From Fibrobacter sp. (GTDB lineage: Bacteria > Fibrobacterota > Fibrobacteria > Fibrobacterales > Fibrobacteraceae), in the NCBI GenBank assembly GCA_012523035.1, contig JAAYJH010000101.1:1-38174 (forward strand): DNA of 38,174 nt, written 5' to 3'. The position numbers and the translations under genes were made by a program. The notes below the pieces were generated by a model, which was not told where the DNA came from, ran no database searches, and saw nothing but the letters and a program-made list of their open reading frames with translations. Below are positions 8,237 to 38,174 of this stretch, piece after piece. The stretch's first letter is position 1. Each line of letters begins with the position of its first letter.

Positions 8237-8244
8237 AAAATACC

Positions 8245-9441
8245 TCATGAATTTATAGAATTACCCTTAAACTTCCAAGTCCCAAAAGCCATAGTCAAGG
8301 CCGTTATCACCACCACTAAAAACAATGTTCCCAAATGCACTGGGACTATTTGCATCTCAGTGGGTATAGAGTAAAATAACAACACTGTAATCAAACCTCT
8401 TGGGGCAATGAGGCTCTCTGGAAACAAATGCTTAGGAGCAAAAAACTTAAAGTAAAAATAACGAAAACCAAATATAAAAACCACAATAGCCAGACTCACC
8501 AAAAAGACTTGTAATTTAAGAATCAAGCTCCACTGCAACGAATAACCAAAAATCACAAAGAAAAAGGTACGCACTAAAAAAGTAGATTCTGTAGCCGAAA
8601 CCTGCATGTACTTTAAGTCTTCTTGCACTTTCATTAGATCAATTTTAGAAGCGACCCACTTCCATTTTTTTAACAAAAGAGTGTTGTTCAAGGCAAGTCC
8701 AAATAAAAACACCAATAGCAAAGCCGGTAAATGGAACAACTTTGCCAAACTATAAACCAAAAGTAATAAAAATAAAATCAAGAAAAACTTCACATGATTT
8801 CTAAGTTTTGTCACCAACCAAACCAAACCCACAGTGAACACAAAAGAGAAAAACACAGTCACTATTACGCTTTCGGTAATCCCTATCACCCAGTCATTCA
8901 CACCTCCCAAATTATTCGCAGCCAAGGTAAAGAATAAAATACCTAAAATATCCGAAAAAGTGGACTCATATATAATAAACTCTCGTTTTTCTTCACTTAA
9001 ATTCTGCGTGCTCGGGATAGCCATCGCACTAGAAATCACAGAAAAAGGAATCGCATTGACCAGACAATGATGGAACGAGTCTCCACTCACCAACTGCAAA
9101 AATAAAGCGATTAAAAAGCTAGAACTCAACAACAAAATCAAAGCCGACAAAGCCGCTTTGGACATCACCTCGATAGCATCTTTGGTTAAATGCAAGTGCA
9201 TAGAAGCCTCTAGCACAATCAATATCAAACCTATGGTTCCTAAAAATGGGAGTATTTTTGTAAAATTTGGTGCTTCTAGGCCAGTCACCGACACCAATAT
9301 ATTTAATAAAATTCCAAAACCCATCAAAAGTAAAACCGAAGGCAATTTAATTCTATGAGAAAAAATATCTAATAGGTATGAAAATATCACAATGACGGAT
9401 GCGGCAAGCATCCCTATAGCCAAAGAACTATCCGCACTCAT
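8245..9441 (-). CDS. Na+/H+ (cation:proton) antiporter, CPA family
   Basis: A 398-aa integral inner-membrane protein with about 11-12 hydrophobic segments and no large soluble C-terminal domain. The Nhx/CPA-like pattern is visible: LPSVLLLMGFGILLN near the N-terminus, then LILIVLEASMHL, then a central ESTFSDILGILFF containing the acidic residues expected in the transport core. The C-terminal APRGLITVLLFYSIP stretch also fits the family. It likely exchanges monovalent cations for protons in pH or Na+ homeostasis; ion specificity cannot be read from sequence. The ATG at 9441 has GAGG upstream. First gene of the operon with the xylanase and yciH. Confidence 0.88.
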   Translation of the reverse strand: MSADSSLAIGMLAASVIVIFSYLLDIFSHRIKLPSVLLLMGFGILLNILVSVTGLEAPNFTKILPFLGTIGLILIVLEASMHLHLTKDAIEVMSKAALSALILLLSSSFLIALFLQLVSGDSFHHCLVNAIPFSVISSAMAIPSTQNLSEEKREFIIYESTFSDILGILFFTLAANNLGGVNDWVIGITESVIVTVFFSFVFTVGLVWLVTKLRNHVKFFLILFLLLLVYSLAKLFHLPALLLVFLFGLALNNTLLLKKWKWVASKIDLMKVQEDLKYMQVSATESTFLVRTFFFVIFGYSLQWSLILKLQVFLVSLAIVVFIFGFRYFYFKFFAPKHLFPESLIAPRGLITVLLFYSIPTEMQIVPVHLGTLFLVVVITALTMAFGTWKFKGNSINS

Positions 9442-22555: not shown

Positions 22556-22568
22556 AAGTGAATCACTT
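22556..22568. promoter_or_regulatory. Palindrome upstream of the repeat-protein gene
   Basis: AAGTGA-A-TCACTT is a perfect 13-bp palindrome located 22 bp before the ATG at 22591, inside the promoter/leader of the Lys/Glu/Ala repeat protein. It could be an operator. The rest of 22352-22590 is AT-rich and includes TTACTAAAAT at 22387-22396, close to the fumarase start. Confidence 0.35.
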
Positions 22569-22590
22569 TTATAAAATAAACGAGGAAACT

Positions 22591-23256
22591 ATGACTTTTA
22601 AGAAAATTACTGTTTTAGCTTTATTGCTTTCTGTACTTAGTTTTGCTGCTGAGGCAAAAACGGACACAAAAGCTCCCGTAGCTACTAAAACCGAAGCTGC
22701 CAAAGAAGCAAAGGCCGAACCTGCTAAAAAAGAAGAGGTAAAAGCAGAAGCCGCCAAAGAAGCAAAGGCCGAACCTGCTAAAAAAGAAGAAGTAAAAGCA
22801 GAAGCCGCCAAAGAAGCAAAGGCCGAACCAGCTAAAAAAGAAGAAGTAAAAGCAGAAGCCGCCAAAGAAACAAAGGCCGAACCTGCTAAAAAAGAAGAAG
22901 TAAAAGCAGAAGCGACTGAAGAAAAGGAAGAGCCTGCAAAAGAAGAAGCCAAAGAGGAAGTGACTGAAGAAAAAGCAGAAGCAAAAGAAGAAGCCACAGC
23001 AGAAGCCACCGAAGAAAAGGAAGAGCCTGCAAAAGAAGAAACTGAAGTTTTAGAAGCTAAAACCGAAACTGCAGAAAGTGTAGAGTCCACTGAAACAAAA
23101 GTTGCCCAAGAAGAAGCCAAAGAGGAAGCGACTCGAGAAGATGCTCCTGCCAAACCATCAAAATCAGTTTTAGAAAATCCTTGGGAGTTTTTAATTGTGT
23201 CGGCTGCTTTTGTTGCTACTGTTTTAGCCATTATTTTCACTGGTGGTAAAGACTAA
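22591..23256 (+). CDS. Exported Lys/Glu/Ala-rich tandem-repeat protein with C-terminal membrane anchor
   Basis: A 221-aa protein of no recognised family. The ATG at 22591 is fixed by GAGG just upstream (CGAGGAAACT); the frame opens earlier at 22558 without support. A signal peptide (about 1-22, ending SFAAEA) leads into a highly charged low-complexity region (about 25-185). This contains four 18-residue repeats (EAAKEAKAEP, then AKKEEVKA) and then more irregular TEEKEEPAKEE units. A short Pro/Lys stretch precedes one hydrophobic segment (about 197-215, FLIVSAAFVATVLAIIF) and a tail GGKD. The layout suggests an extended or helical periplasmic rod tethered at its C-terminus, comparable in style to TolA/TonB linkers, but no functional domain is present. 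It has its own terminator. Confidence 0.75.
   Translation: MTFKKITVLALLLSVLSFAAEAKTDTKAPVATKTEAAKEAKAEPAKKEEVKAEAAKEAKAEPAKKEEVKAEAAKEAKAEPAKKEEVKAEAAKETKAEPAKKEEVKAEATEEKEEPAKEEAKEEVTEEKAEAKEEATAEATEEKEEPAKEETEVLEAKTETAESVESTETKVAQEEAKEEATREDAPAKPSKSVLENPWEFLIVSAAFVATVLAIIFTGGKD
22693..22908 (+). repeat. Four 54-bp in-frame tandem repeats
   Basis: Units at 22693-22746, 22747-22800, 22801-22854 and 22855-22908 each encode 18 residues. Compared with unit 2, unit 1 differs at two bases and units 3 and 4 at one each. Such near-identity implies recent expansion or ongoing homogenisation, and the copy number probably varies between strains. Confidence 0.95.
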
Positions 23257-23280
23257 AACTTTATCTAATAATTGAAATTG

Positions 23281-23310
23281 AAGCTCTAGTGTTTACTAGG
23301 GCTTTTTTTA
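23281..23310 (+). terminator. Rho-independent terminator after the repeat protein
   Basis: AGCTCTAGT (23282-23290) and ACTAGGGCT (23295-23303) form a 9-bp stem with one G-U pair and a GTTT loop, followed by a run of T. It insulates the GH9 genes from upstream transcription. Confidence 0.9.
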
Positions 23311-23465
23311 TCTTCTCGGTCATTTTTACATGATTTTTATCACAAAATTACCCTTAGTTGGGGTTTTAAAATTTTTAATTCATTTTTTTTTATGAATTTT
23401 ACTTTTGAATCATTGCTTTATTAAAGAATAAACCTATTTTATACACGATGGATTTGGGTTGATGT

Positions 23466-23488
23466 ACTAAAACTTTTTGAGTTTTAGT
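23466..23488. promoter_or_regulatory. Inverted repeat in the leader of the first GH9 gene
   Basis: ACTAAAACT (23466-23474) and AGTTTTAGT (23480-23488) form a perfect 9-bp inverted repeat around TTTTG, 33 bp before the GTG start. A possible -10 box TATACA lies at 23440-23445. The element could be a protein-binding site or an mRNA 5' hairpin; no T run follows, so it is not a terminator. Confidence 0.4.
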
Positions 23489-23521: not shown

Positions 23522-26500
23522 GTGCCTGCTTATTTATTATTACTGTTATTTGTTTTTTCTGTAACTAATGCACAACAAAATTTACCGACTCCATACGATT
23601 TAATTCGACCTGTATATCCACTCACATGGGATAGTACTGTTTTCGATAATTATGATACAACAGTCACAACTAAAAAAGGCATGGTGCCTAAAAATAGGAC
23701 TCCAGCAAGTTTTGCTCCAACAGCACTAATTCCAGACACATTAAATCAAGCTTATTTAGATGCCATTAATCTAAAAATTTCTCCTATTCGAGTCAATCAA
23801 GCTGGATATTTAGAAAAAGACGCAGAAAGGCTCTTTTATTATGTGGGTTCTGAAAGCTCTTTTGAAGTGGTAGATTCTATGGGAAATTCTTTTACTCCAA
23901 AATACACTGGAACATTCCAATCTAGTGGTACTACAACCGCTTCTGACTGGACTATTATTGCTGGCACTAACGCTGCTACAAATGATCAATTACGCTATCA
24001 AGTTTCTACTGTAGGCCCCTCTGGAACAATTCAAATTGGAAATCTTCCATTAGACCTCCCCACCAATCAACGACTACGTGTCAAAGTGGGTAGTGATATT
24101 TCTGCTACGTTTATCATTAGCAATGATGTTTATTCCATGGTGCGTTCCGCCACCCTAAAATTTTATGGAATCAATAGAAGTGGTGATTCTGAATCTTGGT
24201 TTCACCCAGCAAGCCATACAAAAGATGGTGGCGGTCCCGTCGTCACAGATGCCGCCGATGTGCGCGGTCCTTTTAACCCAGCTTTAGCGGGAACTTTACA
24301 AGGTGGTTACTACGATTGTGGAGACCACCTCAAAGAATCTCAAACTCAAATGTATGCCTTTATGGTGGCAGCAGTGTTAGCCGCCACCAACCCAATGGCA
24401 GATGACGATAAATACGAGTATAACCATGGTAATACAGCCATAGATGGTATTCCAGATATGTTACGTGAAGCGAAACACGGTGCAGATTTTGTACTTAGAG
24501 CCTATAATCGTGCTGGAGGCATCATTGATGACATGGCTCTTTCTGTCGGGAATTTTGGATCGGATCACGGTTGGTGGGGTCGTCCTGAACACCAAGATAA
24601 TTTACCTACTGGAAATACCGCCACGGCGACTGACCGAGGTGGTCCTGCTTCTAGAACGGTTCGTCTCGGTGAAATTGGTGCAAATATTGGTGGTGAAACA
24701 GCCGCTGGTCTTGCGATTCTTGCAAAAGACTATGCACAGTTTGACAAACCCTTTGCAGACAGTTGCTTAATGGTAGCTAAAAAGATGTATGACTTTGCAA
24801 AAAGCCTTGCTACAGGAAAAAGCACCTACGATGGCGGAAAACCTTTTGTGAATAACACAATACCCGCTGGATGGTCTTCCCCAGCTTATAATGGGAACAA
24901 CGAATTTTTTGACGACCTAGCTCTAGCTTCTATTTCCCTTTTTTATGCCACAGCAGATCCAGCTTATCTTGATGACGCTGCAGAAAGCCGTACATTAAAT
25001 CCAGTCATAACACAAGAATTTGCAGATGGTGCAGGGTTCTTTAACGGTGGTTGGTTTGTCACTGAAAATAAAGGTTTTTTGAAAAACGTAAAAAACACCT
25101 CTTGGGCTAATGCATATTCCTATGCTCTTTACGCCTTTTATAAGCTAATACTTAAAACACCAGAACAAGCCGCACTATACGGTATTAATGAAACCAAACG
25201 TTTAGAGTATATTGAAGATGTCGTCGCCAATATGATTTATAATCTTGGCGATATGAGTAATTACGGATCTACTTCTATCGTTTTGCCAACAGGTTCTATT
25301 GGCTGGAAAAATACTACTGTATCTTATGATCCCATTTGGTTTAGTATGAATACAGATCAAGATTGGATTTATAATCGTTATCAAGCAGGTAATATTTTTG
25401 AAGTACTCGCTTATGCCGATGTCGCCAAAGATTTAACCAATCTGAGCTTGCCTACAATGGGGAGTCCTGATTGGAAAGCAGATGAAATGTACCAATTAGG
25501 AATTAATCAATTAAACTACATGCTTGGTGTAAACCCATGGGATGTTTCTTTTATTTTAGGTGTTGGAGATAAAAATGATGCTCATCCGCATCACCGTGCC
25601 GCTAACCCAGAAGGGAAAAACTTTCCAGGAGCTGGATACAAATACCGCCCTCCTACGGGAGCCTTATTTGGAGGAGTAAAGCCAGGAGCAACAAACTCTT
25701 GGGTTCCATCAAACAAAAGCTGGGAAGACTACCATCTTTCTGAAACTTGTATTGATGCCACAGCCACATTCATAAGTGCTAGTATGCTTGCCGCACAAGA
25801 AGTTGATTACACTAGAGCACCAAAAATCAATGTGGAAATTCTTCACGTGAGTATGGATTCAGCCATTGTCAAATTAAAGTTAGATGTACGTGGTACAGGA
25901 GCTCTTTTTTATGGTACTAGTGAAAATGATTTGAACACGATTGCTTCTCCAGACAATAATGTAGCCGCCATCGAACATGAAATCATTTTGAGGGGCTTAA
26001 AAAATGGAACAACATACTACTTCTATGCTGGTGCATTTAACGCATTGAATGAAAATAATATGACGGCAAAATACTTAGTGGATAGTACTCAAACGCCATT
26101 TTCTTTTACGACTTTGAATACTGTAGAAAATGCCATAATTGAAAATGTCACTGTATGTAATTTGAGTGCCGATAGTGCCGAAATCATGTGGTACACTCCT
26201 AATGGAGAATATGAATCTAAAATCTATTGGGATACCATTCCTCACTCTGAAGCAAGTGAATTTGCTTGGAATTCTGGAACAAAAAATGCAGATATCTCTG
26301 GAATCCCCACCAAATTCCATTATGTAAAGATTGGTGGACTAAAAGAAAAGACCACGTATTATTACATGGTAGAAAGTAATGGCCAGTTCCAATCGGTAGA
26401 TGATAAAGGAGATCTTCTCAAATTCACGACTCCTGTGGCTTGGTATGATTTTTCTGTAAGAACTTATCAATATGAATTTGGTGGATTAGATTTTCTGGAT

Positions 26501-29500
26501 TTGAACATATACAACAACGAATCCTATGCGTTTGATAGCTTAACTTTACGTTTATATGTAACCGCTAAACCAGAAGAAATTGAAAAATGCGCTTTCCTTG
26601 TTGATCTAGATATATGCCAAGCTTATGATGAAGGTGGATTTAATAAACCATGTGAAACCGATAGAGAAATTAGAGATTTATTACGAAATGCAAAAGCAGT
26701 AAAATTAGAAGACACCTATAATGCCGCCACTGGAACCTATTCATGGTATTTCCCTGTCCCATTAGGTTCTACAACGATCAAAGCGTCCTCTCGACTTCGT
26801 ATGGATTTAGGCTTCTCTCAGGGCCTTTCTAATGATGGCTACTTGACATGTGAAACACTACGTCAGCCGTCTAATAAGAGAATGACGAAAGAAACAGGAG
26901 ACTGGTCATGGTCCCCTCATCTTAAAGAAGTGGACGGCGCCTTTTACGATGGCATGCCTTTTGAAGACAAAGACTATGGAGATATAGATGACAATATTCC
27001 TGTCAATCCGTACATTGTCGTTTACAGAAAAGATGAATTTATTTGGGGTTATAGTCCTTCTTACCAAGAAATGACAACCAAACGCGCTAACTATGAAATC
27101 AGTCTCACCCTTGAACCTCCATTTAACGTATCCAACGGTTCTCACGTTGAACTAGATCAAAATAGCAGTACAGTCTATTTTAAAGGGACAGCGAGTGTAA
27201 CAGAAGGTGGTTTTATTACTCGTATTTGGGCTAATGGTACTGAAGTTAAAGATCTTGCCTCTGCTGCAAAATATAATGTGCTTACTGATATGTATGATCT
27301 CAACATCCCTGTAAAAATGACGATTGGTTCTAATAAAGTCGATGTTACTGTTTTTGCTGGCCCAGATCCTACTTGCCAAAGTTGTACAGAAAATGGCGGG
27401 TGTGATTTTGAAAACAGAAACTTCTTCGTTCAATTTACTAAAGGGAATGCTTCTGCAAGTAACTTGCGTATTACAGACGCTTCTGGAAACGCTATTTCAA
27501 GCCCAACAGAACCGGGCAATACTTCTTTTTATATTTACTTGAATGATAAAGACAAAGCCAAATATAGCGGTATTTTATATGCTCTTGTGATTAACAATAG
27601 ACAAGGTGATACCTTACGAGTCAAGCTAGATCCAGAAGGCAAAGAGACTGGGAACTTTAGAAGCAACACTTTAGTTTCTGCTGTTTCCAAATCACCTGCA
27701 GATAGAAACGACACCAAAGAAATATCCTTTTTCGGTGGAGACACCATTCAAGTGATATATATAGACCCAGAAGACGACGAAGACCAGTCTCGTCAAAGTT
27801 TCTATGCAGAGTCCACCTATCCCCTTCCTCAAAGTGTTATAGCTTTAGACACAGACTGTGATGATATGGCAGACTATTTGCAAATCAACTTTAGCACAAA
27901 CTTCACAGAAAATATTCGTATCGATAGTATTTTAGTGAAATTCATAGATCCAAAAAATGAAAAAGAGAACTCCGGAAACATGCTTCATATTCAGTCTAAT
28001 TTTATAGGCGAAAACATAGTCCACATTCCACTCACTGGTGTTTCTGTGCCCCCAACCGCTTCTCCTAGAGGCAATGTTACAATATATCTTTCTGAAGACA
28101 ATGTGGTCACCAAAGAAAGTGTAGAAATTAGTGATGGAATTGCCCCGACTTTGATTAGTGTGACTCTACTAGAAAACCCAGAACCTAGAGGAGATGAAGA
28201 CACTCTTAAAATCGCATTTTCTGAAAAGGTCACACTGGCCTCTAACTCTACTTGGCCCTTAGTGATCCACGATTCTGATGGAAATTTAGTGGAGCAATCG
28301 ACCATCACTATCATAGGCAATGCACAGTCCGATGACGATGGAAAAAGCTACTTGTACTCCATCAAAGGAAACACAGCTGGGTCTCTTATAAAAAAAGGCT
28401 ATAAAGCTTCTATTGCCCCTAGCTTTATGGTTACAGATTCTAAAACCAATCGACTAGACCCTGTGAATGGTTGCAACCCATCTGTGATCATTGCAGAAAC
28501 TCCAAAACCTGTGGCCATCAAGTTTGCAGAAATGAGAGACTTCACGGGAGACGGAGAATTAGACGAGATATACTTGCTGTTTGAAAAGAAGTTAAGAGAA
28601 AAAGACATGCTAGACAGCTTTGAAATAGATTGGGGCTCTCCCTCTACCATCAAGAATTTTTCACCCAAAGACTGGGTCCATGATTTTGTAGTTTCTGATC
28701 CTTATATGAAATACGAAGGCCACCTCGATACTATTGACGGTAAAATTACGAATGTAATCACTGACTCTACCGAAGTTCGAGACTCTTTATCCAAAATAAT
28801 TATCACCATTCCTTCTGATAAAAGTTATCCCTTAGGGACAAGTTCTGGTGATTACAATGGCTACGGAAAGGTAAAACCTCGATTGGGTCCAGAAGGCGGT
28901 TTCTTTGACAAAAGCTACCCATTAGTTGACAAAGCTCCTCCTATTCTATTGAGTGCCCAAAAAAGTAGCACTAATTCTTTGGAAGTTCTGGATTTAAGAG
29001 TTTCAGAATCTATAAAAGAAGCAGAAGATGGCCAAGAAATAATCCAAAGGAAACGCGGTTCCGAAATCACTTCCTTTTCTCCAACAAAACATAGCCTTTC
29101 TCAAAGTAGAATTTCTTTAATTTACGATGCGGAGGCTCCGGATGCTATTCGTATTGGTGATTGGATTCGTTTGGTCCCAGAAAATATGCTTTCAAAAATT
29201 CATGATGTCGCTGGAAACTACCCAGGAGAAGAAAATCCTTGGATTCAAGTCAAAGGGGCTACAGCAGAGAAGACTTCTTTTAAAGTAAACATCCTCAACA
29301 ACCTTAGTTCTTCTGGATCAAAAGAAAATATTTATAATGGAGTCTTGCCCAGTAAAGAGGAGCACTTTAGACTCACAGTCTTAAATAAAGACAAAGAACA
29401 CCCCTTGGCCAAAGGAAAAAAACAGTTGTATTCTACTTTTGGTGAAGCTAGCTACGATACCTCCACTTATAAACACGGAGGACCTGTCTTTAATATCGAG

Positions 29501-29896
29501 ATCACCATGCCCTCTGCTTTGGTAGAAGTTGCTGGTGAAAAATCTTGGGACTTCCTAATTTCTTTTGAATTGTCGCTCTATGACAATCTGGGACAATTTG
29601 TAAATGCCACTGAATATAAATTTATACTCTCTCAAATTGGATACGAACACATTACAATAGATGGAGTACTATCTCTAAATCTAGAATGGATCAGTCAAGA
29701 TTTTCAAGCTCCCGTATCCATCGATGGTAAAAAAATTGCCACTGGCCCTTATATAGCTCGTTTTAATTTCTCATCTATAGCGACCTATTTAATAGACGCT
29801 ACAGGCGAAGAAGACTCTTATAAAAAAGGAGACCGTATAAAAACAAAAGAAGAAAAGACATCTTCCTTTGGGTTTAGACGACAAGAAAAAAGGTGA
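23522..29896 (+). CDS. Giant secreted multidomain GH9 beta-glucanase (probable cellulase), 2124 aa
   Basis: GTG start with AAGGAG six bases upstream; signal peptide about 1-17. An N-terminal Ig-like CelD_N domain (about 85-200, SPIRVNQAGYL) precedes the GH9 barrel (about 205-760). Catalytic Asp265/Asp268 lie in YYDCGDH, the histidine motif is HPHHRAANP (688-696), and acid Glu741 lies in SETCIDATA. Then come two FN3-like modules (about 766-865 and 870-972). A module at about 973-1180 resembles CBM3 (LTLRLYVTA, GDWSWSPH, NPYIVVYRKDEFIWGYSP). Ig-like modules (about 1195-1900) include DTDCDDMAD and DFTGDGELDE loops. A C-terminal domain (about 1915-2090) has FlgD-like DGKKIATGPYIARF, then a basic tail ending FGFRRQEKR. 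The enzyme should cleave beta-1,4-glucan outside the cell. Its stop overlaps the next gene. Confidence 0.9.
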   Translation: MPAYLLLLLFVFSVTNAQQNLPTPYDLIRPVYPLTWDSTVFDNYDTTVTTKKGMVPKNRTPASFAPTALIPDTLNQAYLDAINLKISPIRVNQAGYLEKDAERLFYYVGSESSFEVVDSMGNSFTPKYTGTFQSSGTTTASDWTIIAGTNAATNDQLRYQVSTVGPSGTIQIGNLPLDLPTNQRLRVKVGSDISATFIISNDVYSMVRSATLKFYGINRSGDSESWFHPASHTKDGGGPVVTDAADVRGPFNPALAGTLQGGYYDCGDHLKESQTQMYAFMVAAVLAATNPMADDDKYEYNHGNTAIDGIPDMLREAKHGADFVLRAYNRAGGIIDDMALSVGNFGSDHGWWGRPEHQDNLPTGNTATATDRGGPASRTVRLGEIGANIGGETAAGLAILAKDYAQFDKPFADSCLMVAKKMYDFAKSLATGKSTYDGGKPFVNNTIPAGWSSPAYNGNNEFFDDLALASISLFYATADPAYLDDAAESRTLNPVITQEFADGAGFFNGGWFVTENKGFLKNVKNTSWANAYSYALYAFYKLILKTPEQAALYGINETKRLEYIEDVVANMIYNLGDMSNYGSTSIVLPTGSIGWKNTTVSYDPIWFSMNTDQDWIYNRYQAGNIFEVLAYADVAKDLTNLSLPTMGSPDWKADEMYQLGINQLNYMLGVNPWDVSFILGVGDKNDAHPHHRAANPEGKNFPGAGYKYRPPTGALFGGVKPGATNSWVPSNKSWEDYHLSETCIDATATFISASMLAAQEVDYTRAPKINVEILHVSMDSAIVKLKLDVRGTGALFYGTSENDLNTIASPDNNVAAIEHEIILRGLKNGTTYYFYAGAFNALNENNMTAKYLVDSTQTPFSFTTLNTVENAIIENVTVCNLSADSAEIMWYTPNGEYESKIYWDTIPHSEASEFAWNSGTKNADISGIPTKFHYVKIGGLKEKTTYYYMVESNGQFQSVDDKGDLLKFTTPVAWYDFSVRTYQYEFGGLDFLDLNIYNNESYAFDSLTLRLYVTAKPEEIEKCAFLVDLDICQAYDEGGFNKPCETDREIRDLLRNAKAVKLEDTYNAATGTYSWYFPVPLGSTTIKASSRLRMDLGFSQGLSNDGYLTCETLRQPSNKRMTKETGDWSWSPHLKEVDGAFYDGMPFEDKDYGDIDDNIPVNPYIVVYRKDEFIWGYSPSYQEMTTKRANYEISLTLEPPFNVSNGSHVELDQNSSTVYFKGTASVTEGGFITRIWANGTEVKDLASAAKYNVLTDMYDLNIPVKMTIGSNKVDVTVFAGPDPTCQSCTENGGCDFENRNFFVQFTKGNASASNLRITDASGNAISSPTEPGNTSFYIYLNDKDKAKYSGILYALVINNRQGDTLRVKLDPEGKETGNFRSNTLVSAVSKSPADRNDTKEISFFGGDTIQVIYIDPEDDEDQSRQSFYAESTYPLPQSVIALDTDCDDMADYLQINFSTNFTENIRIDSILVKFIDPKNEKENSGNMLHIQSNFIGENIVHIPLTGVSVPPTASPRGNVTIYLSEDNVVTKESVEISDGIAPTLISVTLLENPEPRGDEDTLKIAFSEKVTLASNSTWPLVIHDSDGNLVEQSTITIIGNAQSDDDGKSYLYSIKGNTAGSLIKKGYKASIAPSFMVTDSKTNRLDPVNGCNPSVIIAETPKPVAIKFAEMRDFTGDGELDEIYLLFEKKLREKDMLDSFEIDWGSPSTIKNFSPKDWVHDFVVSDPYMKYEGHLDTIDGKITNVITDSTEVRDSLSKIIITIPSDKSYPLGTSSGDYNGYGKVKPRLGPEGGFFDKSYPLVDKAPPILLSAQKSSTNSLEVLDLRVSESIKEAEDGQEIIQRKRGSEITSFSPTKHSLSQSRISLIYDAEAPDAIRIGDWIRLVPENMLSKIHDVAGNYPGEENPWIQVKGATAEKTSFKVNILNNLSSSGSKENIYNGVLPSKEEHFRLTVLNKDKEHPLAKGKKQLYSTFGEASYDTSTYKHGGPVFNIEITMPSALVEVAGEKSWDFLISFELSLYDNLGQFVNATEYKFILSQIGYEHITIDGVLSLNLEWISQDFQAPVSIDGKKIATGPYIARFNFSSIATYLIDATGEEDSYKKGDRIKTKEEKTSSFGFRRQEKR

Positions 29897-29901
29897 AAAG
29901 A

Positions 29902-32900
29902 ATGAGATATTTAAACCACATTCTCCTGTTACTGATTTTATTCATAGAGTTTAACTATGCTTTGCCAGAAATAGACAACACTTGTATGGATTGTGACAGG
30001 AGGTACTTGGACTCTTTAAATGTTTATAATCGACGATCCATAAGGGTAAACCAAGTCGGCTTTAGACCTCAAGACTTACATAAATATGCTTTTGTGGCCG
30101 ACCCCACGGCAACTTCATTTAAGGTGATCGACGCCTCTAACAATGAAGAAGCTTGGAGTGGTAACTTAAGCTCCTTAGGAGTATTTAACAAACCCAATAT
30201 CTGGGTCAACGGTGCATTTAACTCTATCAGTCAAGTCTATGACTTTGGCTCTAATAGCCCTAGTTCTAATACAGAGACTTTGTATAGAGCAGATTTTTCA
30301 AGTTTAACTAAACCAGGTCGTTACTATTTAGTTGTTGGTACAGACACTTCGGCTACTTTTTGGTTGCACGATGCCATTTTTAATGCAATTTTTGAAAACT
30401 CTCTTAAATTTTTTGGGGTGAATCGCTGTGGAGACACTCACTCTCAACTACACGGGCCCTGCCATCTTCAAGATGGTTCCGAAATTGGCCACGATTTAAC
30501 AGGTGGCTGGCACGACTGTGGAGACCACTTTAAGGTATCGCAAACTCTTGGTTATGCGGCTTATGTACTTGCCATGACTTACAATGTTTACCAAGACAAA
30601 GCCGAGGATCGCTACGGCAAATCTTATGATGATACCGTTTTCACAGATGGTATTCCCGATGTTTTGTACGAAGCAAAAATAGGGGTTGATTATATTTATA
30701 AACTATACAAAGCCTCTAAAAAAGACGGCCTGATAGATCAAGGAGATATGTACCATTCTGTAGGTGTAGCCATGCCCGACCATTTGTTTTGGGATGTTCC
30801 CGAAAAGCAAGACGCTCAATCTCCCGACAAGGGGGGCCCTGATCGTGTGGTAGGTAAAGGGATAGGCTCCAATGTCGCAGGAGTTTACATTGCTGCTATG
30901 ACTCACTTTGCTATGGGTTGGGAGGTCTTTGACGCCGACTATTCTCAAGAACTCATCGAAGCTGCCAAAGAAATTTACGCCAAAGTTTTAAAGCCCAACT
31001 ACCCCAAAAACACCGATGACTTGAATGGTTTTTATACTGGTGGTGGAGAAAAATATGACGATGCGGCTGCAGCTGCTTTGGGACTCTGGTACGCGACCAA
31101 AGACACCATTTATGCTTTTGACTTGTACAAAAACACAGCCATCAATGACAATGCCACCAACTACCTATACAATTTGCCATATTTTAGAGGTGGATTTATG
31201 GGTCACCAGAGTGGATTTTATCCTGGTGGATGGATGACGGACTACGAAAATGTCCACGCTTATGTGCTTTTTTCTTTTGCTAAACTCATTTTACCTACTG
31301 AAGAAATAGCACAGAGTTATGGTATTAGTGAAAGTGAAAGAGACACCCTCATGACTCGAATTATAGCCACCTTCACACGCCTCACCGATGATGGCTCTCA
31401 AGGAGACTCTATTGTAAGCACCAATGCCTATGGAAACTTCACGGTGGAAGCCCCTTATAACTTGGTGTGGACCTCTTCGGATTGGGGTTTTAATCGCTAC
31501 AATATGGGAGCCACTAATGCCGTCTTTATGCTCTACGATATTACCAAAGATGAACAATACCTAAAAGTAGCCCTTGACAACATTTATTATAATCTTGGGG
31601 CCAATCCATGGGACATTTCTTTTTTAATGGGAGCAGGAGATAAAAACTTAAACCACCCTCACAACCGTGCTGCAAACCCAGATGGCTACAACGCAGGAGG
31701 GCTCCCCTATGCATACAAATGCCCAAGAGGGGCATTAATGGGAGGAGCACACCCAGAAGCAGTGCTTTTGGATGATTGGGAAGACTATACAGCCACAGAA
31801 ACTTGTATTGACTTTTCGGCACAACTTATTATTCCAGCTCAATCTTTGGCCAAAAATTTACCCCCCGACAACGAAGGGCCTCTTTTTAGTAATATACATG
31901 CTGTGCCCATCTCTGACACTTCGGCTATTATTAGTTGGGATACCGATGAAATCGCCAAAGTCACTGTTTTTTATGGGACCACCACAGATCCAAGCAAAGC
32001 TCTAAATAAAAGCACCCCCAGTGCAAGCAAAGGAGGTTCACTGCAAATCGACGGGCTCCAAAGCGGTGTGACTTATTACTTCTTTTTAGAAGGGATCGAT
32101 GTGCGTCGAAATATTTCTACCGATGATAATCATGGATACTGGTATTCTTTTACTATGGACCCCGTGCTTGCAAGTATCGAAGGGCTCACTATATGCCAAG
32201 TAGACAACCGAAGTGCAAAAATTTACTGGTGGACTCCAGATGCTATGACTAATGGTTTAGTTCGATACGGGACTAGCCCCAACAATTTAGATAAAGAACA
32301 AATAGGCAACAATGGTCAAGCCGTTTTGTTTCACGAGGTGAGTCTTCAAAATTTATCTCCTAATACCACTTATCACTTTGTAGCCTCTTCTGGAGCTAGC
32401 ACTTCTGCTCCTTTAAGCTTTAAAACCACAGAACACGCCACTCTAGTGGACTTAGAAATAGTCATAAAACCCACCACCAAAAACACAAACTGTACAGATT
32501 ACAAAGACTGCAACACATTTTTCTTTATTGTAACCAACCAAGATACAGTACACTACACCGACTTAGAACTTCGCTTGTATTTGAGTGCACCTGCTGTAGG
32601 GACTAGCTATAACAGCTCTATATGGGATGGCACGGGTCAAATGAAAGGAGCAGGCAACTTAAATATTGGCTCTGCAGTACCTGATGCAGTTTCTGGAGGC
32701 TACTATTTGCCTATCACTTTAAAAGGAAACTTAGCTGTTTCTGGTAGCTACATGTTTGAACTGATGCTGAGTACCACTTATAGCTCTTTAGAAAACTCTT
32801 GGTCATTAAGACCCCATTTGAATCCAGACGATCCAGTTCCTTTTGTAGGCATTGACCTCACTAAAGGTCCGCTCTACACAGGTACAGAAACTACTTATTT

Positions 32901-35616
32901 AGAAAAAGTCAATGGAAAAAACGAATTTGCTTACACCCAAAGTCCTTATGTGGCGGCTTACTATCATGGAAAACACATCTACGGATACACTCCAGACTAC
33001 ACTCCCGAAAGTGGCCCTGCAACTCCCAAAAATATCGACTTGACCTTTAATTCTCCATTCGTTAGCCCTCGATATTCACTCGAAAAAACCACTTATGAAA
33101 CTAATTACGCTGGAGAAAGTTCGGTTTCTCCTACAGGGAATTTAGATGCTTTTGAATACAATGGAAGCTTATTAAATGTGCTTTACGATCCCCCCAGTCG
33201 CAAAGATCATTTTTTCTTTGGCTTAGACACTGTTTTAAGCTATGGAAACAATTACATCGAGTGGGTTTCTTGGGACAATCGCTATGCCAACCTATCGAAT
33301 AGCTATGACTGTGCTTGTACAGTGGTACGCACCAATGTAGAAATAGACACCATTACCACCCCACTCATTCCTCGCTTTTTCTATTTCAGTCCCGATAGCA
33401 TTTTAGTTTATGAAAACAAAAGGATTGAATTACAGGTAGTGATGACCGATAGCATTGGAGACTTTATAAGTGACGAAGAGATGACTATTTCTTTGTTTTC
33501 AGATGATTCCAAAGTACAATTTTGGAGTTCCCCTACTTCTACACAGCCAATCACGAATATTCCCTTAAAAAACGGTATGGTCACCATCTATGTGAGTGCA
33601 CCAGAAGCCAATAAAACTCATATTTATGCAGACGCATACACCAGCTCTTCTGTCTATAAATACCACCAAGCAGTTGCTTTTTTGAATATAGAAGAGCTCC
33701 CTCCTTGGCCTATCATAGATGTAGCTAAAATCATAGATACAGACTGTGATGGACTTGGAGACGCCATAGAAATCACACTCTCTAATGAATATCAAGACGG
33801 ACAAAAATTTGAAAAAATCCTTTTCACTTATCAAGGGCATCCTTATGAGACAAGTGATGCGGTGATTCAAGGAAAAGTTTTAACAGCCAAAATATCTATT
33901 CAAGACTCTTCTTCGCTTACCAACCCTAGTGGTTCTTTGGTTTTAATCAGTAAAATAGATGGAAAATCAATAGAACACGCCGATTTTTATACCGATGGTA
34001 TTAGTCCTCATGTTTTATCAGTATCTGTTTTAGAAAGACTGCCCGAAGCCATATTCGATCGAGTATTCATCGAGTTTAGTGAGCCTATTTTATCTCCAGA
34101 TGCTATTTTTCCTTTAAATCTCTATTCTAGCGATAAAGCCTTAACCGATGCAAATCCACAAGTGCTTTCTGCTTCTTTGTATAATGACTCCTTGAATGTA
34201 TGGGTTTTTGACATTTCATTTTCTGACGATGAATCTTCTGTAGTACAAGAAGGCATGTATGGACAACTCCAATCAGAATCTTCCATTAAAGATTTGGCTC
34301 AAAATGGAGTTTCTGACTGTCCTCAAGCAAAGCTCCCTATTTCATTAAAAATCCTTCCAGTGCCTCTCACTTATGCAAGCATCTCAGATGCAAACGAAGA
34401 CGGCTTAGCGGAACACATTCGACTTGTATTTAGCCGCCCTGTAGATGAAAGACATAAACCTGACCATGTTTCTATTATTTTTGGAGTGGCTCCAGCCGAA
34501 ACCTTATCTACCAATCAATATAACTTTATTAATGATTCTATTGCTACCATCAACCTGAACCCTGCATTTTCCCATGGAAATACCCACGGGCCTTATCAAG
34601 GTTCATATCAAGGTCGTCCTTTGTTAGGTGCAGGAAAAGTCATTCAACACAAAGGTAGCGGTGCCACTTATGAAAGCAATTCTATATTAGCCGAAGACCT
34701 CGCTGGCCCTGTTCTAGTTTCTTCTACTATTCAAGAAGCCTCTTTTTATAACCTCAGTGTGATTGCCAGTGAACCCTTGAATACCATAGACTCTTCTTTA
34801 GAAATACTTCAAAGAGAAAGGTCTGGTCCTTTACCTATTCTAGAAAAGGATTTTTCTTCTTTCAACTTAATCAATAACAACTCACAAATGTCTATTTTTT
34901 ACCCCCTTGAAGTCGATGCTATCATCAAAGAAGGAGATCGAATTCGTCTGTCGTCCTTTGGTGCTAGTGCTTTTACTGACAAAAGTGGAAATTTTCCTGT
35001 CACAGATAATCCTTGGGTGAGCGTGATTGGAGCAGGAAATCCAAAAATAAAATTCTCAGTGAAATTAAAAGACTTTGTTTCTCAAATCAAAGCCAATGAA
35101 AGTAGCCCTTACTCTTCACCATCTAGAACTTGTATGTATAACTACTCTAGCTCCAAATTAGATTGTTTTATTAATAATAGCTTAGTAGAATCTATAGACA
35201 CCACACAAAACCCCTTAAATGGAGTGGTTTGGGAAATCAAACTAGATGTGCCTCGAGGGTCAGCTAATAGTGAAGACCCTGCTTGGGACTCTTTACTTCT
35301 ACAATATGACATCCCTGTTTACACCAATTTGGGGGCTTTTGTGCAACGATTCTCAGAAGATTTGGTCATTCCATCTCATTCTTATTTTTCGAGTACAGGG
35401 GCTTTGTCTCTCTTTGTAGAATGGGCACCACGCCGTAGCAACTCTTTATTGTCTGTGGACAAAAAAAATGTGGGTACAGGAGCGTATATTACCAAAATAG
35501 ACCTAAAGACAAAATTCTTCCCTAATCCCAATAAAGATAAAGAAACCATAGAGAGATTTTCCAATAAATCCACTTACGATAAAACTTTGCGTTTTGGAAT
35601 TCAAAGAAAAAAATAA
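29902..35616 (+). CDS. Second giant secreted GH9 beta-glucanase, paralogous and co-transcribed
   Basis: The ATG at 29902 is preferred because AAAAGG lies eight bases upstream; a GTG at 29893 overlapping the previous stop as GTGA would add three residues. Numbering below is from that GTG. Signal peptide about 1-23; CelD_N-like domain about 48-160; GH9 about 165-655. Catalytic Asp208/Asp211 lie in WHDCGDH, the histidine motif is HPHNRAANP (588-596), and acid Glu636 lies in TETCIDFSA. FN3-like modules (about 660-755 and 762-847) are followed by a CBM3-like module (about 850-1038, LELRLYLSA, NSWSLRPH, SPYVAAYYHGKHIYGYTP). Ig-like modules carry DTDCDGLGD (1282-1290) and DANEDGLAE. The C-terminus has VGTGAYITKID and the basic tail FGIQRKK. 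Module order matches the upstream protein throughout, indicating tandem duplication. Confidence 0.9.
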   Translation: MRYLNHILLLLILFIEFNYALPEIDNTCMDCDRRYLDSLNVYNRRSIRVNQVGFRPQDLHKYAFVADPTATSFKVIDASNNEEAWSGNLSSLGVFNKPNIWVNGAFNSISQVYDFGSNSPSSNTETLYRADFSSLTKPGRYYLVVGTDTSATFWLHDAIFNAIFENSLKFFGVNRCGDTHSQLHGPCHLQDGSEIGHDLTGGWHDCGDHFKVSQTLGYAAYVLAMTYNVYQDKAEDRYGKSYDDTVFTDGIPDVLYEAKIGVDYIYKLYKASKKDGLIDQGDMYHSVGVAMPDHLFWDVPEKQDAQSPDKGGPDRVVGKGIGSNVAGVYIAAMTHFAMGWEVFDADYSQELIEAAKEIYAKVLKPNYPKNTDDLNGFYTGGGEKYDDAAAAALGLWYATKDTIYAFDLYKNTAINDNATNYLYNLPYFRGGFMGHQSGFYPGGWMTDYENVHAYVLFSFAKLILPTEEIAQSYGISESERDTLMTRIIATFTRLTDDGSQGDSIVSTNAYGNFTVEAPYNLVWTSSDWGFNRYNMGATNAVFMLYDITKDEQYLKVALDNIYYNLGANPWDISFLMGAGDKNLNHPHNRAANPDGYNAGGLPYAYKCPRGALMGGAHPEAVLLDDWEDYTATETCIDFSAQLIIPAQSLAKNLPPDNEGPLFSNIHAVPISDTSAIISWDTDEIAKVTVFYGTTTDPSKALNKSTPSASKGGSLQIDGLQSGVTYYFFLEGIDVRRNISTDDNHGYWYSFTMDPVLASIEGLTICQVDNRSAKIYWWTPDAMTNGLVRYGTSPNNLDKEQIGNNGQAVLFHEVSLQNLSPNTTYHFVASSGASTSAPLSFKTTEHATLVDLEIVIKPTTKNTNCTDYKDCNTFFFIVTNQDTVHYTDLELRLYLSAPAVGTSYNSSIWDGTGQMKGAGNLNIGSAVPDAVSGGYYLPITLKGNLAVSGSYMFELMLSTTYSSLENSWSLRPHLNPDDPVPFVGIDLTKGPLYTGTETTYLEKVNGKNEFAYTQSPYVAAYYHGKHIYGYTPDYTPESGPATPKNIDLTFNSPFVSPRYSLEKTTYETNYAGESSVSPTGNLDAFEYNGSLLNVLYDPPSRKDHFFFGLDTVLSYGNNYIEWVSWDNRYANLSNSYDCACTVVRTNVEIDTITTPLIPRFFYFSPDSILVYENKRIELQVVMTDSIGDFISDEEMTISLFSDDSKVQFWSSPTSTQPITNIPLKNGMVTIYVSAPEANKTHIYADAYTSSSVYKYHQAVAFLNIEELPPWPIIDVAKIIDTDCDGLGDAIEITLSNEYQDGQKFEKILFTYQGHPYETSDAVIQGKVLTAKISIQDSSSLTNPSGSLVLISKIDGKSIEHADFYTDGISPHVLSVSVLERLPEAIFDRVFIEFSEPILSPDAIFPLNLYSSDKALTDANPQVLSASLYNDSLNVWVFDISFSDDESSVVQEGMYGQLQSESSIKDLAQNGVSDCPQAKLPISLKILPVPLTYASISDANEDGLAEHIRLVFSRPVDERHKPDHVSIIFGVAPAETLSTNQYNFINDSIATINLNPAFSHGNTHGPYQGSYQGRPLLGAGKVIQHKGSGATYESNSILAEDLAGPVLVSSTIQEASFYNLSVIASEPLNTIDSSLEILQRERSGPLPILEKDFSSFNLINNNSQMSIFYPLEVDAIIKEGDRIRLSSFGASAFTDKSGNFPVTDNPWVSVIGAGNPKIKFSVKLKDFVSQIKANESSPYSSPSRTCMYNYSSSKLDCFINNSLVESIDTTQNPLNGVVWEIKLDVPRGSANSEDPAWDSLLLQYDIPVYTNLGAFVQRFSEDLVIPSHSYFSSTGALSLFVEWAPRRSNSLLSVDKKNVGTGAYITKIDLKTKFFPNPNKDKETIERFSNKSTYDKTLRFGIQRKK

Positions 35617-35651
35617 AGCTTCTATATTTTTAAGGAAAGAATTTTAGCATT

Positions 35652-35680
35652 TAACATGTTATTTAACAAATAACATGTTA
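35652..35680. promoter_or_regulatory. 29-bp near-perfect inverted repeat at the kinase gene start
   Basis: TAACATGTTATTT (35652-35664) and AAATAACATGTTA (35668-35680) are exact reverse complements around AAC. Each arm also contains the 10-bp palindrome TAACATGTTA, so two identical palindromes sit 19 bp apart centre to centre. The candidate ATG at 35675 lies inside the right arm. It could be a dimer-dimer operator or an mRNA hairpin controlling translation. No T run directly follows. Confidence 0.6.
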
Positions 35681-37900
35681 TTGATGGTGTTTTTTTTTAT
35701 AAATTCAGAGTGTATGGAAGTTTTACTCTTCAAGCAAAATCTTTTACTAATCTATGCTTATGCCATTGAGTTTTTAATTTTAGTGGCTGTTTTATTCCAT
35801 TTGCGGCTCAAAAGAAAAAAAACGGTGGCTTCACAGGAATTAAAAAATCTAACAAAAGTAAGCATTGCATGGGTAAAACTAGCCCTACTCACCCAAATTT
35901 TTGTAAGCCCTTCCAATCAAATTTTTTGGTTTTATTTACAAGCTTTTTTTTGGGTTCAAATTGGCTATTATATGATTCAAGTTGTTTTTCAGTTTTTTGA
36001 AGAAACTTCAATCAATTTTTGGAAACATTGGAAAAACACAGGGATGGCAACCAGTGTATTGCTCTTTTTAGCACACTTTTTATATCCCGATAAAATTCTT
36101 TATTTATTGGGCCCCTTTTCTATTATCATCACCGCTCATATCCTTCTTTATTTGTATTTTTTACTTCCAATTGCATATTTGTTTTTATTCATACTACTTA
36201 AAAAATATGAGATCAAGAGAAAAGATGAAGCCCTTGCATTCCATCGAATCATTCCCATTTATTTCCTTAGTTTTTTTATTGGTTTTTTATTCGACATCAT
36301 TATCCCCAAAATCCACCACAACACCTCCACTAATTTCCTATCCTTTACTTTAATTTCTATCGGTTTTTTAATTGTATTTTTACATTTCAGCTTTAGATCT
36401 CTTTTTATTTGGAGTGGGGATTTAAAATATGTGTTTCACCATTTGGTTGAAAACTTAAGCGATGGGATCTTGTTTATAAACAAAAAAGGCACTATTTTAT
36501 TTGCCAACAAAAGTGTGCATCAAATTTTAAAAGTAGAAAACAATTCATTACTCAACAAACGGATTCAATCTTTCTTAAATAATATCGATCCCTATACAGA
36601 AAAAAAAGACTTTCCCATTCTATTAAAAAATGACATTTCTTTTAAATTATCCATTATAAAAAACAATCTCCAAGAAAACTCTTACGATTATATCCTCATT
36701 TTAACCAGCAATGATATAGAAGTACAATACAGAAAAAAAATTGAAAAGATTAAAAAAGTCGCCAAGCTCGAAGAAATAAAACAACAAAATATGATTAAAG
36801 AAATCAAAAAAGTCATATTAGAAAAAGAAATTTATTTGCACACTCTTATCAATCACCTACCTTTTAGATTATGGTCCAAAAATAATCGAGGCGTTTATAC
36901 CATACAAAACAAAAACGACGAAGCCTTTTCTGGTAATAAAATTGGACAAAGTGTATTGGCCGAAAATGATTTTGAAAAACAAGCAGAAGAGGGCAAGTTT
37001 ATTGAATTTGACTCTAAAATAATAGATGAAAATCATGAAGAACGCTATTATCACAACACTTACATACCTATTTTCAACCAAGAAGAACAAAATGGAATTA
37101 TTGGACTCTCAGAAGACATTACAGAAAAAGTTCTATTACAAAAAGAGCAAAATGCTCTTAAAGAGCGTCTCTTTAATGCCTCTCGAGTCGAAGATTTAGG
37201 AAGTCTAGCTGGAGGAATTGCTCATGATTTCAACAATATTTTGGGCTCTCAAATTGGATTTTGTGAACTGGCACTAGAAAGTCTAAAAGACGACGAACCT
37301 GCAAAATCTTATATTTATGAAGTCTTAAAAGCTTCTTTAAGGGGCAAAAAAACCGTAAAAAAACTACTAGGGACCATCAATAGCAAAGAAAACGAAGATC
37401 CTATGGAGTTTATTGCCAATCTAATTTTAGACGAAGTGGTCCGTCTTTTAAAAAGTTCTTGCCCACCCAATATCCAAATAAAAACAGAGGTCGAAAATGA
37501 CAAAGTGAAAATATTAGGTTATGCGGAAGCTTTTCACAGAATACTTTTTAATTTATCTTCAAATGCCATTGCAGCTATGAAACAAAAAGGTGGTGTTTTA
37601 CTCATAAAATCAAGCACCGTTGCTTTGACTACCGAAAAGAAAATCCCTTATGGAGAACCTATTCCTGTTGGCACTTACCTTAAAATTGAAGTGATAGATT
37701 CTGGTGAGGGAATTTCTCCAAACGCACTACAACGAATTTTTAGCCCATTTTTCACCACAAAAGCACCAAAAGAGGGCTTAGGTTTAGGTTTATCTACTAC
37801 TATGTTACTTTTAAAAGAAGCAAATTCTTATATTACAGTAAAGACAATTATTGGAAAAGGTTCTACATTTACTGTGTATTGGCCCAACCCCACAATTTAA
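35675..37900 (+). CDS. Multi-TM PAS sensor histidine kinase
   Basis: Numbered from the ATG at 35675; ATGs at 35684 and 35714 are alternatives, and none has a well-spaced ribosome site. The N-terminal half (about 15-245) holds about seven hydrophobic helices, like 7TM sensor kinases. A PAS domain (about 253-350, LVENLSDGILFINKKGTILF) and a charged coiled coil (about 352-390) follow. A second PAS with its terminal motif is at about 390-485 (GLSEDITEK). HisKA is at about 495-565, with His517 in GGIAHDFNNIL. HATPase_c (about 585-738) shows an N box NLSSNAIAAM, G1 DSGEGIS, F box FSPFFTTK and G2 GLGLGLS. The kinase should autophosphorylate and pass phosphate to the regulator encoded 17 bp downstream. 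It lies 58 bp after the GH9 pair, with no clear terminator between. Confidence 0.88.
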   Translation: MLLMVFFFINSECMEVLLFKQNLLLIYAYAIEFLILVAVLFHLRLKRKKTVASQELKNLTKVSIAWVKLALLTQIFVSPSNQIFWFYLQAFFWVQIGYYMIQVVFQFFEETSINFWKHWKNTGMATSVLLFLAHFLYPDKILYLLGPFSIIITAHILLYLYFLLPIAYLFLFILLKKYEIKRKDEALAFHRIIPIYFLSFFIGFLFDIIIPKIHHNTSTNFLSFTLISIGFLIVFLHFSFRSLFIWSGDLKYVFHHLVENLSDGILFINKKGTILFANKSVHQILKVENNSLLNKRIQSFLNNIDPYTEKKDFPILLKNDISFKLSIIKNNLQENSYDYILILTSNDIEVQYRKKIEKIKKVAKLEEIKQQNMIKEIKKVILEKEIYLHTLINHLPFRLWSKNNRGVYTIQNKNDEAFSGNKIGQSVLAENDFEKQAEEGKFIEFDSKIIDENHEERYYHNTYIPIFNQEEQNGIIGLSEDITEKVLLQKEQNALKERLFNASRVEDLGSLAGGIAHDFNNILGSQIGFCELALESLKDDEPAKSYIYEVLKASLRGKKTVKKLLGTINSKENEDPMEFIANLILDEVVRLLKSSCPPNIQIKTEVENDKVKILGYAEAFHRILFNLSSNAIAAMKQKGGVLLIKSSTVALTTEKKIPYGEPIPVGTYLKIEVIDSGEGISPNALQRIFSPFFTTKAPKEGLGLGLSTTMLLLKEANSYITVKTIIGKGSTFTVYWPNPTI

Positions 37901-37917
37901 CTTAAAGAGGAGCATTT

Positions 37918-38174
37918 ATGCCTAAAATACTAGTTATCGATGACGATGAATCTTTTAACTTGATGTTAAAAACAACTCTTGGCTTGGCAGGCTACGATGT
38001 AGATACTGCCAAAAACGGCTTAGAAGCAAAAAAACTATACTCTGTTCAAAAATATGATGTAGTGATCACAGACATCATTATGCCTGAACAAGATGGTTTT
38101 GAAGTGATACTCGAGCTCCGTCGTCTCAATCAAGCCCAAAATGTGATAGCCATTAGCGGTGGTGGTCGTACCAG
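37918..38174 (+). CDS. Response regulator receiver protein, N-terminal part (runs off window)
   Basis: The ATG at 37918 has a strong AAAGAGGAG. The visible 85 residues form a CheY-like receiver: the acidic pocket in MPKILVIDDDES, the phosphoacceptor Asp52 in VVITDIIMPEQDG, and the Ser of IAISGGG at the switch position. The gene is cut by the window end, so an output domain cannot be judged. Together with the kinase 17 bp upstream it forms a two-component pair. Confidence 0.93.
   Translation, partial: MPKILVIDDDESFNLMLKTTLGLAGYDVDTAKNGLEAKKLYSVQKYDVVITDIIMPEQDGFEVILELRRLNQAQNVIAISGGGRT

Follow-up and report, generated by a model that had tools for sequence, protein, structure and literature searches.

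Does a histidine kinase gene placed directly behind two giant cellulase genes encode a dedicated cellulose sensor? This question is raised by a locus of Fibrobacter sp. (assembly GCA_012523035.1, contig JAAYJH010000101.1). The window analyzed is the entire contig (C62 in our numbering; 38,174 bp) from a 2.2 Mb assembly comprising 125 contigs. It carries two glycoside hydrolase family 9 genes, GH9A and GH9B, followed on the same strand by genes for a histidine kinase (HK) and a receiver-only response regulator (REC); a fifth gene, encoding an NtrC-type sigma54 activator, lies off this contig. The original prediction, made from the window alone, was that of a dedicated cellulose sensor induced together with its enzymes. 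Our analysis leads, with moderate confidence, to a different interpretation: a sigma54-dependent stress/chaperone control module is docked behind a largely constitutive cellulase pair, the two being linked genetically, but probably not as enzymes with their dedicated sensor.

The corresponding locus of F. succinogenes S85 contains the GH9 genes Fisuc_0393 and Fisuc_0394 and, downstream, Fisuc_0397, which encodes a sigma54-like two-component response regulator (Suen et al. 2011, PMC3079729). In this genome paper the regulation of cellulases in F. succinogenes was presented as an unanswered question, and Fisuc_0397 was already named as their possible regulator (PMC3079729). Judging from conserved gene order and protein size, GH9A and GH9B are probably orthologs of Fisuc_0393 (FSU_0809) and Fisuc_0394 (FSU_0810), respectively, and gene order suggests that HK and REC correspond to Fisuc_0395 and Fisuc_0396.

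Gene order in Fibrobacteraceae

GH9A (positions 23522..29896, + strand) and GH9B (29893..35616, + strand) encode proteins of 2,124 and 1,907 amino acids (aa). Both genes start with GTG and they overlap by 4 bp, which confirms the predicted pair of co-oriented GH9 genes of ∼2,000 codons with minimal overlap. The HK gene was called at 35675..37900 (+ strand; 741 aa), and the REC gene (37918..38174, + strand) runs off the contig. Its remainder is found on contig C73, one end of which is identical to the final 26 bp of the window; the next gene on C73 encodes the 462-aa NtrC-type sigma54 activator. Open reading frame (ORF) calls were mechanical; many of the genomes used for comparison are metagenome-assembled genomes (MAGs), and contig breaks conceal some neighborhoods.

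Among the 111 Fibrobacteraceae genomes surveyed, an HK ortholog was identified in 95 and GH9B in 76. HK lies downstream of GH9B on the same strand in 72 of these 76 genomes, and the proposed genetic linkage of the kinase to the cellulases is therefore real. In 13 of the 72 there is an apparent 1.5-kb gap between the two genes (the match begins near HK residue 457), which we attribute to divergence of the HK N-terminus beyond detection. The order GH9-HK-REC-activator is also present in MAGs named F. succinogenes. HK is fused with REC in genus g4 (genomes G003 and G013), and genus g3, where GH9B is absent, shows a GH9A-HK arrangement. In addition, HK-REC-activator is kept without an adjacent GH9 gene in 7 genomes checked among those lacking GH9B. 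At two further loci (L080, G005:C6:2688-11544; L087, G010:C111), HK-REC is located beside an ABC ATPase, FtsX permeases, and LolA-like and outer-membrane-like proteins, hinting at an envelope role of this pair.

Two-component pair and sigma54 activator

The HK protein has an N-terminus with multiple transmembrane segments, followed by PAS, HisKA and HATPase_c domains, all three recognized by Pfam, with the AHDFNNIL H-box and the N, G1 and G2 motifs present. The REC fragment (85 aa) matches Pfam Response_reg, and its phospho-Asp is intact (VITDIIMP). With an H-box and ATPase in one protein and a phosphorylatable Asp in the other, the predicted kinase and response regulator pair stands; the regulator, however, is a lone receiver, and the output protein is the product of the fifth gene. 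Pfam and motif inspection recognized no sugar-binding sensor domain in HK, and the comparison of HK and the activator with NCBIfam gave generic matches only, far under the cut-off.

In the activator, Pfam analysis of an ortholog revealed Sigma54_activat (E=2e-71), a Fis helix-turn-helix (HTH) and a receiver-like domain. The alignment of 30 orthologs showed the architecture of the NtrC family: a receiver-like domain, an AAA+ domain with a GAFTGA-type loop, and a Fis-type HTH. The loop varies as G-A/S-F/Y-T-G-A/S, and the Walker A/B motifs and the HTH are intact. At the phospho-Asp position of the receiver there is an S in this genome and S/G/N/E/H/C in all other genera but one (g10). In a classical two-component system the DNA-binding regulator is phosphorylated at the Asp of its own receiver; the activator does not conform to this, the residue being degenerate in most lineages, and it is therefore probably not phosphorylated directly by HK.

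An ortholog of the activator was found in 39 of 41 genomes across Fibrobacterota, including lineages without GH9 or HK, and sigma54 is encoded in all genomes. In each of the nine genomes lacking the cluster and carrying both genes on one contig (G005, G010, G025, G027, G028, G031, G032, G039 and G040), the activator gene lies directly 3' of dnaK(-dnaJ), with dnaJ in between where the ORF call resolves. An attempt to separate candidate activators by phyletic absence failed, as the activator is present nearly everywhere.

Sigma54 promoters and a shared palindrome

The genes adjoining sigma54 sites were named by recognition from sequence, except for those run through Pfam. In this genome, 44 exact sigma54 sites were identified, compared to none in a reversed control. 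Exact -24/-12 sites precede dnaK, groES, clpB and a gene for a sigma70-family factor. In the closed genome G016, such sites were found at dnaK, grpE, groES, htpG, hsp20, the genes for glutamine synthetase III and a sigma70-family factor, and amtB. At dnaK, sites scoring at least 11/12 are located 51-92 bp upstream of the gene in 11 of 11 genomes (genera g1, g2, g3, g4, g7 and g10); none of this quality was found in the other 15 genomes tested, one of which, G040, has a 10/12 site. Recurring -24/-12 sites at dnaK, groES, grpE, clpB, htpG and hsp20 are what is expected of sigma54 chaperone promoters.

Upstream of many of the chaperone-gene sites there is a palindrome, GTTTC-N5-GAAAC. It is also present at the dnaK/grpE loci of lineages that were not used for its definition (g5, g8 and family f4); in the first two of these, a -24/-12 site scoring 9-11/12 lies 50-82 bp downstream of it. 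Three of the six exact palindromes in the closed genome G016 are at groES, grpE and htpG. In families f3, f5 and f6 an HrcA-like gene precedes grpE (the f3 example was confirmed by Pfam).

Many other sigma54 sites lie in intergenic arrays of repeats that have no obvious gene downstream, and these were not counted as promoters. These tandem arrays (loci L202, L211, L205 and L210; G000:C11:8090-8319, C113:5709-5917, C41:8-310 and C107:18335-18421) consist of units of ∼50-100 bp, each with an exact sigma54-like box, CTGGCACGATTTTTGCA, and may represent a repeat family rather than promoters.

Expression of the cellulase genes

The sigma54 promoter and enhancer pair is absent upstream of GH9A (n=27), GH9B (n=26) and HK (n=34). 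A sigma54 promoter directly 5' of GH9A was sought as well and rejected, none of the scanned sites being consistent.

The start codon of HK is probably the ATG at 35714 (MEVLLFKQNLLLIYAYAIEF) rather than the one at 35675, because the closest ortholog begins MEAVLFRKELFLIYAYVIEL. The distance between GH9B and HK would therefore be 97 bp and not 58 bp; the original description of the kinase and regulator genes was correct as to order and strand, and probably not as to this gap. The statement that no terminator is evident there was too strong. A perfect AT-rich inverted repeat with 12-bp arms, AACATGTTATTT-AAC-AAATAACATGTT (35653..35679, + strand; 0 expected in shuffles; RNA fold of -14.3 kcal/mol), is followed by T9 at 35690-35698, 10 nt past the stem. 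The terminator scan does not score this element because of its AT-rich stem and the 10-nt distance to the T run. In the GH9B-HK gap, the repeat and T9 may act as a weak terminator or as a regulatory palindrome.

A strict hairpin and T run was detected in 4 of 34 GH9-HK gaps and 3 of 26 REC-activator stretches; all 29 HK-REC gaps were free of it. By eye or with a looser scan, hairpins between GH9 and HK were also found in G002, G018 and G015, and more weakly in G016, so that terminator-like structures occur in about 8 of the 34 loci, in several genera. In the F. succinogenes clade the GH9-HK gaps are 18-26 bp long, with no terminator-like hairpin. As the terminator signals and gaps differ, some species probably allow transcription to continue from GH9 into HK, whereas for others this is doubtful. 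The conserved linkage with short gaps suggests that a part of the family may co-transcribe the cellulase and module genes.

Were HK a sensor of cellulose or its breakdown products that induces the GH9 pair through REC and the activator, the locus would be an autoregulated cellulose system, which we consider very unlikely. The conserved adjacency in 72 of 76 genomes would fit such a system, as would the short GH9B-HK gaps, with 30 of 34 loci free of strict terminators, and one small study in which Fisuc_0393 peptides were detected in cellulose-grown cells only (PMC4619616). However, Fisuc_0393 is strongly transcribed, at a stable level, whether cells grow on glucose, cellobiose or cellulose (PMC6204037), and the envelope proteome on cellulose revealed no increase, with FSU_0809 1.2-fold down and FSU_0810 unchanged (PMC6851124); both proteins occur in the extracellular medium (PMC4668043). 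Moreover, the enzyme and HK genes lack the sigma54 and enhancer pair, hairpins interrupt some of the GH9-HK gaps, the module is kept in 7 genomes without adjacent GH9, and the activator is found across the phylum, its ancestral linkage being to dnaK-dnaJ. The locus also differs from SusCD/hybrid two-component polysaccharide utilization loci: HK has no recognized domain for extracellular sugar binding, there is no SusC/D in the window, and the enzyme promoters share no signal. The dedicated sensor of the original prediction is thus not borne out.

An indirect connection with cellulose is possible through another gene pair. An exact -24/-12 site precedes spoVG-comM in three genomes, G000, G074 and G087 (loci L210:6630-8548 in G000:C107, L310 and L315). 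In S85, the adjacent homologs Fisuc_0384/0385 are reported to be extremely induced by cellulose, with a log2 change of >5.5 relative to either sugar, and both substrate and growth rate affect gene clusters enriched in chaperones (PMC6204037). In G087 the spoVG-comM pair is situated roughly 13 kb upstream of the GH9 cluster. The module might accordingly answer a cellulose-linked signal, with other sigma54 genes, notably spoVG-comM, as its targets. We regard this as unlikely: the spoVG promoters lack GTTTC-N5-GAAAC and have another dyad, of the GTGATT/AATCAC type, which suggests another activator, and no exact spoVG sigma54 site was found in G016. The site at spoVG-comM and the cellulose-induced homologs nevertheless make a cellulose-responsive sigma54 branch possible, through this or another activator.

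Proposed function of the module

Gene order and its conservation, the degenerate receiver, the dnaK-dnaJ linkage, the pairing of sigma54 sites with the palindrome, and the absence of such pairs at GH9 and HK are the sequence-based components of the chaperone-control interpretation. To these we add, by inference, the binding of the activator to the palindrome, the transfer from HK-REC to the activator, and the signal. In this model the GH9 pair would encode giant secreted cellulases expressed from an ordinary, largely constitutive promoter. The activator would be the ancestral Fibrobacterota sigma54 activator of chaperone genes, most likely binding GTTTC-N5-GAAAC 40-80 bp upstream of the -24/-12 promoters at grpE, dnaK, groES and clpB, and driving these genes with sigma54 RNA polymerase. 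The likely recipient of the HK signal is the intact lone REC, which would alter the activity of the activator by protein contact. In Fibrobacter lineages the activator gene appears to have left its place 3' of dnaK-dnaJ and now follows HK-REC and the GH9 genes. The signal may be membrane or secretion stress, which is a guess.

The gene order might also be inherited vertically in a slowly rearranging neighborhood, with no functional tie between cellulases and regulator. We give this passive linkage a real, though less than even, chance. The flanking gene families c4, c5 and c6 are partly conserved as well, GH9 and HK are separated by terminator-like hairpins in several genera, and the module survives without GH9 genes, all of which are consistent with it. 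On the other hand, the block is tighter than its flanks and intact across six genera, while the flanks, with some of their genes shared, shift in order and strand. Overlaps or very short gaps are typical within the block, and the REC-activator gap is usually 0-24 bp.

Several observations count against control of chaperones by this module. GTTTC-N5-GAAAC is not over-represented genome-wide compared to a reversed control; therefore only its position serves as support, and the tie between activator and palindrome, drawn from position and linkage, stays presumptive. The sites at spoVG-comM, glutamine synthetase III and amtB indicate that the sigma54 regulon is wider than chaperones, and other sigma54 activators exist (three strong ones in this genome and more in relatives). 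Genus g10 is the sole genus in which the activator receiver has kept its Asp. Genera g5, g7 and g8 retain the activator and the chaperone sites without HK, and the regulon therefore does not depend on HK-REC, which may have its role elsewhere. Finally, in G005 and G010 HK is separate from both GH9 and the activator, and HK-REC precedes ABC/FtsX/LolA-like envelope genes. Weighing these points, we still favor a module in which the activator probably controls chaperones and HK-REC probably signals to it. The evidence shifts the regulator from a likely cellulase regulator to a likely chaperone regulator, for which an enhancer and promoter signature is now concrete.

A broader and more tentative proposal, which we rate as rather unlikely in its entirety, is a phylum-wide sigma54 heat-shock system based on a pseudo-receiver activator and GTTTC-N5-GAAAC. 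In Fibrobacter the activator gene would have left the dnaK operon, come to lie behind the genes for a membrane kinase and a lone REC, and taken a position next to the giant, constitutively secreted cellulases; the chaperone supply would thereby follow the envelope/secretion load on cellulose. If true, a whole phylum would run its heat-shock genes through sigma54, with the stress regulator relocated beside major secreted cellulases.

Cellulase genes and flanking regions

Membership of both giant proteins in GH9 was established with Pfam (E-values of 4e-53 and 1e-62; PF00759 scores of 182 and 213 bits, above the cut-off of 27.7). GH9A has a signal peptide-like N-terminus and a catalytic domain encoded at 24131-25780 (DCGDH at aa 265, SETCID at aa 740), followed by a fibronectin-III/purple-acid-phosphatase-N-like domain and a long tail. 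GH9B, which solved GH9 cellulases match on sequence, contains a CelD_N immunoglobulin (Ig)-like domain, a catalytic domain encoded at 30382-31830 (DCGDH at aa 208, TETCID at aa 635) and a fibronectin-III-like domain. The D-x-G-D-H base and xExxID acid motifs are kept in both, pointing to putative catalytic activity. The tails (∼1,000 residues each) gave no significant Pfam match. The model of the ∼1,050-aa GH9B tail, of modest confidence (mean predicted local distance difference test score of 69), suggests an all-beta chain of beta-sandwich (Ig-like) domains, and Foldseek searches with it retrieved mostly Ig-repeat proteins. The size of these genes, considered unusual in the original prediction, is normal for GH9 proteins of Fibrobacteraceae. 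Several F. succinogenes-type genomes (L111, L112, L115, L116, L118, L119 and L122) have a third giant GH9 gene ahead of the pair, and G030, from another family, has three giant GH9 matches in tandem.

The terminator scan placed an intrinsic terminator (23280..23305, + strand; an 11-pair stem, then a T run) behind the preceding gene (22558-23256), which it parts from GH9A. This gene encodes a Lys/Glu/Ala-rich repeat protein with 54-bp tandem repeats in the DNA, a C-terminal hydrophobic stretch and no Pfam match; similar genes are present near the cluster in G016 and G008. A candidate -10-like promoter element of GH9A, CTATTTTA (23434..23441, + strand), was proposed from sequence comparison, since CTATTTTA/CTATTTTC recurs 5' of GH9A in many relatives (L112, L114, L116, L118, L119, L122, L123 and L125). 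Just 5' of the GH9A ribosome-binding site there is a leader inverted repeat, ACTAAAACT-TTTTG-AGTTTTAGT (23466..23488, + strand), and relatives have hairpins of different sequence at about this position. Genomes of the F. succinogenes clade carry a terminator-like leader hairpin (GGGCAAGAC..TGTTTTGCCCGCTTTTTT type) 5' of the GH9A start that resembles an attenuator or a leader that is processed. The contig also encodes another plant-polysaccharide enzyme, a GH10 xylanase with CBM4_9 (6593-8248, - strand), which is unlinked to the cluster.

Comparison with known systems

In Myxococcus xanthus, the heat-shock gene lonD is activated by the HsfBA phosphorelay, which pairs a histidine kinase with an NtrC-like regulator (PMC9109919). 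The Fibrobacter module resembles it in this combination of kinase, NtrC-like regulator and heat-shock target, but the hybrid kinase HsfB phosphorylates HsfA directly, whereas here the activator receiver is mostly degenerate, REC is a separate protein and cellulase genes adjoin. A precedent for the proposed REC contact step is provided by VemR-FleQ-RpoN2 of Xanthomonas citri, in which a receiver-only regulator encoded beside sigma54 machinery acts by protein contact at sigma54 promoters (PMC6637908). This system differs in that flagellar genes are controlled, sigma54 itself is bound, the VemR operon has no kinase gene, and that study describes no chaperone targets.

Control of chaperones by sigma54 is, as a kind, already known by prediction in other phyla. 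In Bacteroidota and Planctomycetota, GroEL/ES, GrpE, DnaK, DnaJ and IbpA have been predicted downstream of sigma54 promoters (PMC12316311), as found here for chaperone genes; Fibrobacterota are not mentioned in that study, whose consulted passages assign neither an activator nor an enhancer to the chaperone genes. The Fisuc_0393-0397 locus of S85 shares with ours the two GH9 genes and the sigma54-like regulator downstream; its family-wide conservation, the degenerate receiver, the dnaK-dnaJ linkage and the chaperone promoters were not reported in the S85 paper (PMC3079729). Within the searchable literature, the regulator, its enhancer and their linkage to cellulases appear to be new for Fibrobacterota.

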